Assembly (NCBI GenBank): GCA_036389795.1 | Contig: DASVWD010000020.1 | Span: forward strand, 1 to 47,987 | Origin: Longimicrobium sp. | GTDB lineage: Bacteria; Gemmatimonadota; Gemmatimonadetes; Longimicrobiales; Longimicrobiaceae | Length of the DNA stretch: 47,987 bases | Direction of reading: 5' to 3' | Shown: one piece after another, positions 31,358 through 36,337 of the stretch | How the letters are laid out: the number at the start of each line of letters is the position of its first letter | How positions within the stretch are numbered: the stretch's first letter is position 1 | Made by a program: the position numbers and the translations under genes | Notes under the pieces: model-generated | Seen by the model: only the letters and a program-made list of their open reading frames with translations | Database searches by the model: none | Told to the model about the DNA's origin: nothing

Positions 31358-33145
31358 CTAGACCCCGCCCGGGGAGGCGGCAAGGAGATCGTCCCCTTCC
31401 ACCTCTTCGGCCAGGAGCTGCCTGCGCTGCAGCGCCGCGTACACCCCGCCCAGGCGCAGCAGCTCCTCGTGCGTGCCTCGCTCCGCCACCCGCCCGTCGT
31501 CCAGCACCAGGATCAGGTCGGCGTGCATCACCGCCGTCACCCGGTGGCTCACGATCACGCTGGTGCGGCCCCTCAGCACGTCCCTGAGGCCTTCCAGGAT
31601 CTCGTGCTCGGTGTGCGTGTCCACCGCCGAGAGCGCGTCGTCGAGCACCAGGACCTCCGCGTCGCGGGCGAGGGCGCGGGCGAGCGCCGCCCGCTGCTTC
31701 TGCCCGCCGCTCAGGTTGATCCCCCGCTCTCCCAGCAGGGTGTCGTAGCCGCCGGGGAACTCGCTCACCGTGGCGTCCAGCCGCGCCACCTTGGCGGCGT
31801 CGCGGATGCGCGCCAGCCGCTCGCCCTCGTCCGCCTCGTCGAACCCCAGCGCCAGGTTGTCGGCGATGGTGGTGGAGAAGAGGAAGGTGTCCTGCGGCAC
31901 CACCGCGATGGCGCTCCTGAGCCGCTCCAGCTCCCACTCGGGGAGCGGCACGCCGTCGAGCCGCACCTCGCCTTCGGTGGGGTCGTAGAGCCGCACCAGC
32001 AGGGCGGCCAGCGTCGACTTCCCGCTCCCGGTGGGGCCGACCACGGCCACGGTGGAGCCCGCGGGGATGGTGAGCGAGACGCCGCTGAGCACCCGGCGCT
32101 CGGTGCCGGGGTAGCGGAAGGAGACGTCGCGGAACTCGACCTCGCCCCTGACGAGCGCGGGGGTGCGCGGGTCACGCGGCGAGACGATGGCCGGCTCCGC
32201 CTGGAGCACGCGCGAGACGCGGCCCATGGAGGCGGCGCCGCGCTGGAAGAGGTTCACCACCCACCCCAGCGCGATCATCGGCCACATGAGCTGGGCCAGG
32301 TACATCAGGAAGCCCACCAGCTCGCCGTCGCTGAGCGCGCCGCGCATGATGGCGCGCCCGCCGATGCCGAGCGCCACGGCCGTCGCCACGCCGCCCAGGA
32401 GCCCCAGGAGCGGGTAGAAGAAGCCCGACGTCCGGGCCAGGTCGACGTTGCGGTCCATGTACTCGCGCGAGAGGGCGCGGAAGCGGCGGGTCTGGTCGTC
32501 TTCCTGGCGGTAGGCCTTGACGATGCGCTGCCCGGCCAGGTTCTCCTGCGCGAAGGTGGAGACCATGCCGAGCTGGTCCTGGATCTTCTCGAAGCGGCGG
32601 TGGATGAGGTTGCCGAAGGCGATGGTGACGGGGGGCAGCGCCACCAGCGGCAGGAGCGACCACAGCGTCATCCACGGGTCGATGAGCGCCATGCGCACGG
32701 CGGCCATGGTGCCGAAGACCACGGTGTGCACCAGGTACATGTACGCGGGCCCCGCCACCATGCGCACGGCCTGGATGTCGTTGGTGGCGCGGCTCATGAC
32801 CTCGCCCGTGGGGTGCTGCGCGTAGAACGAGGCGTCCAGCCGCATCAGGTGGGCGAAGAAGTCGTCGCGCAGGTCGGTCTCCACCCGGCGCGAGACGCCG
32901 TTCAGGATCTCGCGCATCCCGTAGCGCGCGGCGCCGCCCAGCACGGCGAAGAGCACCGAGAGCGCGGCGTAGCGGAAGACGAGCTCGCGGCCGACGCCCG
33001 CGCGCCCGAGCGCGTCGACGCCGTCCATCACGAACTCGACGCTGGCGACGCCCGCCGCGCCGGAGGCTACCACCATCACCAGCCCCCAGGAGATCGGCCG
33101 GCGGTAGCGGGCCAGGTAGGGGAGGAGCGCCTTCAGGTTCTTCAT
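31358..33145 (-). CDS. ABC exporter, fused membrane and ATPase domains
   Basis: This 595-aa half-transporter of the MsbA/multidrug type would act as a homodimer in the inner membrane. The transmembrane domain (about 1-320) includes the family segment FFAHLMRLDASFYAQHPTGE. The ATPase domain (about 345-580) has Walker A VVGPTGSGKST, Q-loop VVPQDTFLF, signature INLSGGQKQR, Walker B VLVLDDALSAVD and H-loop VIVSHR. All catalytic residues are present. The substrate (lipid, drug or peptide) cannot be decided. It is first in an operon with a kinase and a receiver. Confidence 0.93.
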   Translation of the reverse strand: MKNLKALLPYLARYRRPISWGLVMVVASGAAGVASVEFVMDGVDALGRAGVGRELVFRYAALSVLFAVLGGAARYGMREILNGVSRRVETDLRDDFFAHLMRLDASFYAQHPTGEVMSRATNDIQAVRMVAGPAYMYLVHTVVFGTMAAVRMALIDPWMTLWSLLPLVALPPVTIAFGNLIHRRFEKIQDQLGMVSTFAQENLAGQRIVKAYRQEDDQTRRFRALSREYMDRNVDLARTSGFFYPLLGLLGGVATAVALGIGGRAIMRGALSDGELVGFLMYLAQLMWPMIALGWVVNLFQRGAASMGRVSRVLQAEPAIVSPRDPRTPALVRGEVEFRDVSFRYPGTERRVLSGVSLTIPAGSTVAVVGPTGSGKSTLAALLVRLYDPTEGEVRLDGVPLPEWELERLRSAIAVVPQDTFLFSTTIADNLALGFDEADEGERLARIRDAAKVARLDATVSEFPGGYDTLLGERGINLSGGQKQRAALARALARDAEVLVLDDALSAVDTHTEHEILEGLRDVLRGRTSVIVSHRVTAVMHADLILVLDDGRVAERGTHEELLRLGGVYAALQRRQLLAEEVEGDDLLAASPGGV

Positions 33146-33184
33146 TCCGAATCCGGTCGAACAGTGAACGAATTCAACTCGACG

Positions 33185-33228
33185 GATGTCATCCCGAGAG
33201 GGGCGGTAGCGACCCGAGGGATCTACTC
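33185..33228 (+). repeat. GATGTCATCC...GGATCTACTC element
   Basis: A short dispersed element runs from GATGTCATCCCGAG to GAGGGATCTACTC in the divergent spacer between the ABC exporter and a lipoprotein gene. Related copies lie at 251-322, 42731-42802 and 45009-45052. Confidence 0.75.
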
Positions 33229-33429
33229 GATCTTTCTGGTGGACGGCGAGTGGAGCAAAATGCCTGACGCCACCCTCGCATCGCCCGCCGTTCGTCCGGC
33301 TGTGTACCACCACCGCGCAGGCACGGGCGTTGCCCCCTCCCAGCCGGGCCGGACCGGGGGAGGGGGAGCCGGACGATAACCCCCCGGACGTCCGTTCTTC
33401 AAGCCACCACGCCAAATCGGAGCAGTCCC

Positions 33430-34389: not shown

Positions 34390-34989
34390 TCAGCGGCTCT
34401 CGATGAAGCCCAGGCCATCGCTGAACCTCGTCAGCAGCCTGCAGCCGTGGCCGGCGAGCTGGCCGCGGATCCGGGGCTTGTAGAAGTCGCGCGTGTTCTT
34501 GGTGAGAAAGCACTTGTCGCCCGTTTCCGCCGCCGCCAGGTGCCGGAGAACCGATGCGTAGACGATGGCATCCTGCGGAGAAAGGCCGGTTTCGTGCTGC
34601 ACCGAGACCGCCGAGCGCGCCACTTCCGCATCGATGGGGATCAATTCCGCGACGTCGAGCGTCGTCTTGATCGCCTCGTCCAGGCGAGCCTTCTCCTCGT
34701 CTCTGCTCAACGTGAGCAGGGTGGCGACCGTCTGCATCTCCTGGACGGACTTCTCGTAGGGCTTCGATCTGCTGAGCTCCTCGAGCTCGTCGGCGAGCTG
34801 GCTGCTCACTTCCAACCGGCGCCGCGAGCGCCGGACCCAGCTTTCGTACGGCTCGCCGACACTGAATGCCGGAAGAAGCAGGCGGACGCGGCCGGCACGG
34901 GCCAGGTCCAGCAGTCGGTCGCACGCCTCGTGCTCGTCCCGGACCAGCGCGCGCTCCAGAACGAAGTTCGATTCCACGTAGACGATCAT
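34390..34989 (-). CDS. PIN-domain ribonuclease-like protein
   Basis: This 199-aa protein has the PIN fold with acidic positions in order: Glu5 in VYVESNFVLE (Glu replaces the usual Asp), Glu46 in SVGEPYESW, Asp in GLSPQDAIVYASV (about 139), and Asp/Asn in FLTKNTRDFYKP. PIN proteins are mostly Mg-dependent RNases and often toxins. Its ATG overlaps the stop of the upstream gene (ATGA), so the two are translated together. Base composition is lower in GC than the region. The partner is not a classic antitoxin, so the module type is open. Confidence 0.8.
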   Translation of the reverse strand: MIVYVESNFVLERALVRDEHEACDRLLDLARAGRVRLLLPAFSVGEPYESWVRRSRRRLEVSSQLADELEELSRSKPYEKSVQEMQTVATLLTLSRDEEKARLDEAIKTTLDVAELIPIDAEVARSAVSVQHETGLSPQDAIVYASVLRHLAAAETGDKCFLTKNTRDFYKPRIRGQLAGHGCRLLTRFSDGLGFIESR

Positions 34990-35447
34990 GCCGTTTCCGC
35001 CAGCCTCACCGAGCCACCCTTGATCGTGTCGAGCAGCCCCGATTCGAGGAGCCACTCCTGCCGCTCGTCGGGCAGTTGGCCGTTCCTGCGCGCACGGGTA
35101 AGCAGTTGAAGCCAGGTGGCTACGATCATCTCGAGGCTGAGTCGAGTGACCTTATCGAGGCAAACGCGGTCCAGGTCGACCACCCTGCCCAGGAACGGAC
35201 GCGCGTCCACGACGTAATCCGGCAGTGCATCGGCGTCGTGCGGGCGGTCCGTCCGCCAGACGAAGAAATGGCTCGGCACAGCGATCAGGAAGTATGGCGC
35301 AGTCCCCACGATCGGCATGTGCTGCAGCAGCTCGCTTCGGAGCTCCGCGGCCCATTCGGGCGACGTTCCTTTCTCCGTCGTGACTTCCGCGACCAGCAGA
35401 ACTCCGCGGTCGGGCGCATACACGGTGATGTCGGGTCCCGGGTTCAT
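34986..35447 (-). CDS. Restriction-endonuclease-fold-like protein paired with PIN protein
   Basis: This 153-aa protein begins MNPGPDITVYAPDRGVLLVAEV. The PD...(x)n...EVT arrangement followed by a helix (EWAAELRSELLQHM) and strands (YFLIAVPSHFFVWR) resembles the PD-(D/E)xK/Uma2-like fold, but the usual Lys reads T, so activity is doubtful. The ATG at 35447 has GGAGACGGGGAG before it. The frame stays open for 30 credible codons upstream (RIAEQIQACYLQSGH), so the true start may be earlier. It overlaps the PIN gene by 4 nt. Confidence 0.6.
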   Translation of the reverse strand: MNPGPDITVYAPDRGVLLVAEVTTEKGTSPEWAAELRSELLQHMPIVGTAPYFLIAVPSHFFVWRTDRPHDADALPDYVVDARPFLGRVVDLDRVCLDKVTRLSLEMIVATWLQLLTRARRNGQLPDERQEWLLESGLLDTIKGGSVRLAETA

Positions 35448-35772
35448 CTCCCCGTCTCCATCAGGATGTCCAGATTGAAGGTAACATGCCTGGATCTGTT
35501 CCGCTATCCTCGCTGTTCGCGTCCCTGTCCATTTCGTCTGACGGATGCCAGGGGCGGCGAGGATGGTATCGCAACACATGACGACGCTGGCGGTGGATGT
35601 GCAGACGGTCGATCGTCGGCGCACAGGGTGTTCCTTGACTTTGACGCCACCGCGAGCGAAGGTGGGAGGCGCACCCGTGGTCGAGATGCGACCGCGCCAC
35701 CGCTCACCCCACCGCTCGGCGCCCGTGCTCCGCGCGGCCGCCGGACGGACCTTTCGCGACGGAGGACGGCTG
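35448..35772. other. Divergent control region of the PIN module and lanthipeptide genes
   Basis: No gene is seen apart from the possible N-terminal extension of the PD-(D/E)xK-like gene. TTGACT at about 35635 is a possible -35 box for the plus-strand genes, with no clear -10. The 50 bp before the first precursor resemble those before the second (CGGCCGCC..., GGAG), indicating that the unit duplicated with its leader. Confidence 0.35.
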
Positions 35773-35994
35773 ATGAGAAAGCTCGCGCTCGACCCGGAAT
35801 CGCTGCAGGTGATGAGCTTCGCCACCGTGGAGGCGGAGGGCGATCCGCGCGGCACCGTGCACGCTCACGACGACACGCTGCCCACCGAGATGCAGTGCAG
35901 CAAGTTCGGATGTCCCACCAAGACCTGCGACACCCAGGAGGACTGCAACTCGATCGATCCCTACTACTGTAACTCGGTCGAGCCTTACTGCTGA
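35773..35994 (+). CDS. Pinensin-family lanthipeptide precursor 1
   Basis: This is a 73-aa precursor. The leader (1-about 37) has MRKLALDPESLQVMSF, then EAEGDPRGTV and DDTLPTE, matching the leader type NCBI-style annotation calls pinensin family. The core (about 39-73) has six Cys and several Ser/Thr (CSKFGCPTKTCDTQEDC, then CNSIDPYYCNSVEPYC), so dehydration and lanthionine rings are possible. The last 16 residues are a tandem duplication of a CNS[IV]xPY unit. GGAGG lies 7 nt before the ATG. No LanB, LanC, protease or exporter gene is adjacent. Confidence 0.8.
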   Translation: MRKLALDPESLQVMSFATVEAEGDPRGTVHAHDDTLPTEMQCSKFGCPTKTCDTQEDCNSIDPYYCNSVEPYC

Positions 35995-36121
35995 TCCGGC
36001 GGGCTCCGAACCGGGGGCCGGTGCCCGGCCGTCCCCCGACCTGCGGCCTTCGCTCGCCACCCGCCCGGCCGCCGCGGCCGCACGACGTCCGGGCAGACCT
36101 CTCCCGAACGGAGTAACGACC

Positions 36122-36337
36122 ATGAGAAAGCTCGCGCTCGACCTCGACGCCCTGCAGGTGGAGAGCTTCGCCATCGAGGCGGAGGGCGACCTGCGCGGCA
36201 CCGTGCAGGCGAACGAGGACACGGCGCCGACCGAGTTCTGCACGCCGGGCAACGGCTGCCGGACGAACCACTGCAACACCAACCAGCAGCAGTGTAACAC
36301 GGTGGCGCCGTACTGCCGGAACGAGCCGGCGGAGTAA
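36122..36337 (+). CDS. Pinensin-family lanthipeptide precursor 2
   Basis: This is a 71-aa paralogue of the preceding gene. The leader MRKLALDLDALQVESF, EAEGDLRGTV and DTAPTE are almost the same, while the core diverged (FCTPGNGCRTNHCNTN, QQQCNTVAPYCRNEPAE; five Cys). The shared CN[ST][IV]xPYC unit appears once here and is followed by a RNEPAE tail that precursor 1 lacks. GGAG lies 9 nt before the ATG. The 127-bp spacer resembles the upstream region of precursor 1. A strong terminator follows at 36395. Confidence 0.8.
   Translation: MRKLALDLDALQVESFAIEAEGDLRGTVQANEDTAPTEFCTPGNGCRTNHCNTNQQQCNTVAPYCRNEPAE

Follow-up and report, generated by a model that had tools for sequence, protein, structure and literature searches.

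Two neighbouring genes of a Longimicrobium contig as probable members of a genome-wide family of class I lanthipeptide precursors

Two small adjacent genes lie in the window, the whole stretch of 47,987 nucleotides from Longimicrobium sp. that was analyzed here. They are best read as precursors of class I lanthipeptides, two of about 155 in the genome that carry one and the same leader, and they would be modified in trans by a split LanB (LanB-N and LanB-C) and a LanC encoded on another contig, C225 (Table 1). The probability of this reading, which is drawn from sequence comparison, is put at roughly 85%. Unmodified or otherwise modified peptides would give the same sequence picture.

Table 1. 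Precursor genes and nearest exporter of the window, with the candidate modification enzymes of contig C225
Feature	Position	Strand	Description
Precursor gene 1	35773..35994	+	73 aa; 31-aa leader MRKLALDPESLQVMSFATVEAEGDPRGTVHA and 6-Cys core
Leader of gene 1 (putative recognition tag)	35773..35868	+	match to leader profile A1, E 8e-14
Precursor gene 2	36122..36337	+	71 aa; leader MRKLALDLDALQVESFAIEAEGDLRGTVQA, same type, and 5-Cys core
Leader of gene 2 (putative recognition tag)	36122..36214	+	match to leader profile A1, E 3e-13
ABC transporter (ABC_membrane and ABC_tran)	31358..33415	-	nearest exporter to the pair
LanB-N (N-domain protein)	C225, ~8.3-11.5 kb		PF04738
LanB-C (separate C-domain protein)	C225, 11500-12552		PF14028; TIGR03891 match
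LanC	C225, 12996-15041		PF05147

Both open reading frames of the pair start with ATG, have purine-rich (GGAG) stretches upstream and share the leader pattern MRKLALD..xLQVxSFA...EAEGDxRGTV. Protein identity is 74% between the two leaders (84% at the DNA level) and 43% between the two cores, which bears out the sequence-only reading that two small genes with a common leader and differing cores stand side by side. When the window was scanned in six frames with an HMM built from leaders elsewhere in the genome, the window pair excluded, these two ORFs alone stood out (E 5e-15 and 3e-14), while the next-best window match reached E 0.45 and the reversed-sequence control 0.43. Because the left-out HMM finds only these two ORFs, the leader match is not a matter of chance.

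The core of gene 1 contains the Ser/Thr-to-Cys segments TEMQC, SKFGC, TKTC, TQEDC, SIDPYYC and SVEPYC, and the core of gene 2 contains TEFC, TPGNGC, TNHC, TNQQQC and TVAPYC. The unit CN[ST][IV]xPY[CY] occurs twice in the former (CNSIDPYY and CNSVEPYC) and once in the latter (CNTVAPYC), the same counts that had been read from the sequence before, and it is absent from all other cores of the genome. Every cysteine of the two cores (11/11) follows a Ser or Thr at a distance of two to six residues, with no other Cys in between; this was reached in 0 of 20,000 shuffles, by a criterion that was framed after both cores had been seen.

The pair had been described as an orphan pair. The pair itself is real, but far from being a small orphan set, it belongs to a family of about 155 precursors. 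The genome, a draft of 285 contigs with an estimated contamination of 3.75%, holds about 155 ATG-started leader ORFs on 67 contigs, of which 154 are complete with distinct cores and 153 have at least two core cysteines; 95 of the ORFs stand in tandem arrays and the remainder are single. This count is based on search matches and the regions retrieved around them, with leader profile A1 (68 leaders; at least 150 matches in the genome) used at a threshold that is permissive at its low end. At a loose threshold, the NCBI pinensin-leader model NF038180 matched 117 times in the genome (7.5 Mb), and 18 of these matches exceeded the curated cut-off. The consensus of the family leader is MxKLxLxLDxLxVESFxTxxxxxxRGTVxG. 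A search for other leaders of this type, which had been suggested as a check on the pair, thus returned about 155 in the genome and conservation in nine relatives. Two further relatives, like the window genome, have at least 150 leader matches and others have 1 to 14; therefore, the size of the set is not a quirk of a single assembly. No leader gene was found in 58 genomes searched from other families of the same order or class.

The cores of the family hold up to 24 cysteines. In close precursor pairs, the leader and the upstream DNA are kept and the cores have diverged, as in the pair on C197, where the upstream DNA is 94%, the leaders 97% and the cores 67% identical. In a search for a common upstream regulatory element, only GGAGGA words resembling a ribosome-binding site stood out. 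Applied to all cores, the ring-distance criterion gave 551/1168 against 487 ± 14 by chance, a modest excess. Across the family, the strongest core pattern places Ser/Thr at -1 (z 27) and at -5 (z 21) and Cys at every fourth residue (z 12); Ser/Thr at -5 fits a ring with Cys, and an adjacent Thr-Cys cannot close one. Some exporter-adjoining precursors keep their core between species, for example CSAIDACPTRLC.

Several single members of the family differ in their cores. One leader ends right after GTVHG with no core and has probably decayed (L085, C84:5790), and in another precursor (L091, C14:27178) the core repeats a 20-residue unit, SGGGATQCGGVQTCGGGCQV, three times almost perfectly. The exporter-adjoining core CSAID[AR]CP[TS]RLC is near-identical in four genomes (L039, C206:18893, minus strand; L160, L161, L165), unlike the scattered cores. 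Precursors near LanB in relatives (L149:11242 and L144:6834) have cores that are almost wholly CSxC or CTxC repeats.

The split LanB/LanC genes that had been proposed as an object of search were located on C225, a contig other than that of the window. The window genome has a single split class I dehydratase, LanB-N and LanB-C, followed by LanC. C225 ends about 340 bases past LanC, and a precursor directly behind LanC is possible. The best solved relative of LanB-N is the glutamylation enzyme TbtB (6ec7). For LanC, the best NCBIfam match is the LanM model TIGR03897 (234 bits) and the best PDB sequence match is LicM2; its predicted fold matches LanC proteins at Z 25-34, and six orthologues all keep the zinc ligands C309, C356 and H357. 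A phage origin of the enzyme was rejected after a search of the viral collection found no LanB relative. A second type of LanB-N is found in two relatives (L117 and L118; G010:C9, G069:C322), with a Pfam score of about 510 bits versus about 110-155 for the split type. Besides these, the window genome has two genes that are LanM-like and one more that is LanC-like (L047, C28:11290-19325; L044, C285:109937-111025); the presence of the LanM type does not go with that of the leader.

The LanC of C225 has a conserved C-terminal extension of 240 residues (L038:14313-15038), which was modelled alone with a pLDDT of 85. The model matches TglI of TglHI (Z 13.0), NGO1945 (11.3) and leader-bound TbiB1 (9.4), followed by lasso B1 (8.8), TbtB (8.5), PqqD (8.4) and MibB (8.4). 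Most of the fold matches are leader-binding proteins or enzymes with such a domain, and the model also scores on an unrelated methyltransferase (8hkr, Z 11.9). Sequence profiles (PqqD, HvfC) agree weakly. The domain is therefore predicted from the model to have a PqqD-like winged-helix fold of the TglI/HvfC/PqqD type, and it is plausible that it serves as a docking site for the leader. TglI and HvfC, leader-binding partner proteins of the same predicted fold, act with a separate iron enzyme, whereas here the domain is fused to a LanC cyclase; no description of a LanC fused to a leader-binding domain was found in the literature searched.

The link between the leader genes and these enzymes comes from the relatives. 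Of the 21 family genomes, ten have LanB-N, and the same ten and no others have the leader (Fisher p 2.8e-6 over 21 genomes, a statistic that ignores phylogeny). Among the 14 genomes that are at least 90% complete, the numbers are 8 and 8 (p 3.3e-4, again with phylogeny ignored). Linkage of precursors to LanB/LanC is absent in the window genome as assembled and present in G061, G067 and G072. The gene order in G061 is LanB-N, LanB-C, precursor, LanC, precursor, precursor; G067 has LanC, then two precursors, and an ABC exporter; and G072 has LanB, ten leader genes and an exporter in one stretch. The exporter of the family occurs in 9 of the 10 leader genomes and in none of the 11 others, and contig C206 of the window genome carries an exporter beside a 13-precursor array that is 78% identical to the G067-type exporter. 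With the co-occurrence, the operon linkage and the exporter orthologue taken together, a pinensin-like class I lanthipeptide system very probably takes the products of the window genes as substrates in trans. The sequence-only reading had offered either enzymes that act in trans or unmodified peptides; the former has the best support, given that the same ten genomes carry both LanB and the leader. It had also named two outcomes that would speak against a lanthipeptide role, a genome with no LanB/LanC-type enzyme and a leader that is not conserved in related genomes; neither came about, as the genome has LanB and LanC and nine relatives retain the leader.

The surroundings of the pair hold no such enzyme: the LanB, LanC and LanM markers had zero matches on the window contig, as had been stated for the immediate neighbourhood. 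The nearest ABC exporter had been placed 2.6 kb away on the other strand; the strand is right, and the distance is close to that, about 2.4 kb. This transporter is probably unrelated to the precursors, because it is only 34% identical to the leader family's own exporter, and with that exporter encoded elsewhere it was rejected as the dedicated exporter of the pair. Just upstream of the pair, at 34390-35580, are two minus-strand ORFs that, judged by eye, resemble a PIN-domain protein and an endonuclease-like protein of the Uma2 type. A defence-system reading of the pair was discarded, with no PADLOC match. The adjoining gamma-glutamyltranspeptidase gene is present in 19 of the 21 family genomes, and inspection of further loci, with flanks of 1.5 kb as far as the contigs reached, found no leader gene beside it; a conserved tie between the two was rejected on this ground. 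The cores of the pair occur only in the window genome, to which the site is also specific, with no precursor found there at the loci inspected in relatives.

A route for the window peptides can be proposed. The leader would act as an address tag that LanB-N, LanB-C and LanC bind in trans, probably via winged-helix leader-binding domains, one of which would be that fused to the C-terminus of LanC. LanB-N would glutamylate Ser and Thr, LanB-C would eliminate the products to Dha and Dhb, and LanC would close (methyl)lanthionine rings between each Cys and a preceding Ser/Thr. Up to six (gene 1) and five (gene 2) consecutive small rings could be formed in this way. Export would most likely be by the ABC exporter beside the 13-precursor array on C206. 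For the window peptides, we infer all four steps, namely dehydration, ring formation, export and leader removal.

Other explanations of the pair were weighed against this. With two LanM-like genes on C28 of the window genome, the leader-bearing peptides might be modified by these class II enzymes and not by LanB/LanC. This is highly improbable in view of the genomes themselves: no LanM turns up at E ≤ 1e-5 in G072, for all its 150 or more leader genes, G070 carries LanM and lacks a leader gene, LanM and leader co-occur far more weakly (p 0.02, versus the value above for LanB-N), and the leader genes of relatives adjoin LanB/LanC. LanM was thus ruled out as the modifying enzyme because its distribution does not track the leader family.

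The window genes could instead be relics or drift products, copies that landed next to the gamma-glutamyltranspeptidase gene and have ceased to be expressed or modified. The pair does occur at this site in the window genome only, beside a gene that most of the family has; the core of gene 1 has no convincing match among the genomes of 20 relatives, that is, elsewhere in the family; and at least one other copy, that on C84, lacks a core. However, both ORFs are intact, with their ATG starts and upstream purine-rich stretches, and a possible Ser/Thr partner has been kept for every cysteine, so decay of the pair is considered unlikely. It is likewise doubtful, to a similar degree, that the cores are free-thiol, disulfide or metal-binding Cys-rich peptides which have the leader in common by descent, with LanB/LanC serving only a few operon-linked precursors. 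The TCxxTC rhythm of many cores would also suit metal or disulfide peptides, and only operon- or exporter-linked cores, such as CSAIDACPTRLC, look conserved across species. Yet the leader stays conserved in scattered copies while the cores diverge, as is expected where an enzyme still reads the leader. Modification in trans by the C225 enzymes is therefore preferred.

Compared with described systems, the closest analogue is that of the prochlorosins. In prochlorosins and synechococsins, one class II LanM serves many scattered and tandem precursors with a conserved leader and a hypervariable core, with 29 precursors for ProcM and 79 for SyncM (PMC10783134). The likeness to these peptides of marine picocyanobacteria lies in one enzyme set, a large scattered precursor set, seen here in the 155 ORFs, 67 contigs and 154 distinct cores, and hypervariable cores. 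The prochlorosins have a class II LanM and Nif11-type leaders that end in Gly-Gly, whereas the window genome has a split class I LanB with LanC, a leader with no Gly-Gly and about 155 precursors, in the phylum Gemmatimonadota; as modifier, LanM is not what is found, its marker being absent from leader-rich G072. The system is thus not a member of the prochlorosins, because the enzyme class and the leader differ.

The pair had also been called pinensin-type, which holds for the enzymes, a split LanB and a LanM-like LanC, and less well for the leaders, as NF038180 gave gene 2 a score of 21.3 bits against a cut-off of 24 and did not match gene 1, which makes the pair possible members of the pinensin family proper. 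A split LanB has been described for pinensin, and a LanM-like LanC for Bacteroidetes with pinensin-family precursors (PMC7268733). As a product, the pinensins comprise two components, with two MeLan rings (PMC13060382). Compared by the model and by descriptions, the class I pinensins of Chitinophaga pinensis share with the window genome a related leader, a split LanB and a LanC that resembles LanM cyclases; the window genome differs in its about 155 different cores, their high Cys content and enzymes that lie far from most precursors. The split LanB of thiopeptides (TbtB type) likewise has the glutamylation and elimination domains in separate proteins, but in the window genome LanC follows the LanB genes. 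With LanB and LanC in the genome, precursor linkage in relatives and the zinc ligands of LanC, the system would appear to be a variant of class I lanthipeptides.

Taken further, it is likely, though less firmly so than the reading of the pair itself, that this family of Gemmatimonadota runs a genome-wide library of class I lanthipeptides. At least 150 scattered and fast-changing precursors, which gain and lose genomic sites, would all be served by a single LanB-N/LanB-C/LanC set whose cyclase carries a fused leader-binding domain, and the window pair would be a recent, species-specific entry. Such a library would be an independently evolved counterpart of the prochlorosins, at about twice their size. 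With some 155 precursors, it would exceed every other library of this kind within a single genome that was found in the literature searched; that literature, other papers being possible, described no large precursor set for this group.

Where a single enzyme acts on tens of scattered substrates, the prochlorosins have been the usual example. A second case, with class I enzymes and in a distant phylum, would allow a comparison of what such libraries do and how their cores diversify. Relatives with at least 150 precursors and relatives with 1 to 14 allow a comparative test, and the C197 pair is an example of core diversification. For the making of ringed peptides, the family may offer a tolerant class I enzyme set together with 154 natural core sequences. 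Furthermore, gene-cluster searches that take an enzyme as their starting point will easily overlook loci like that of the window, with no enzyme in range.
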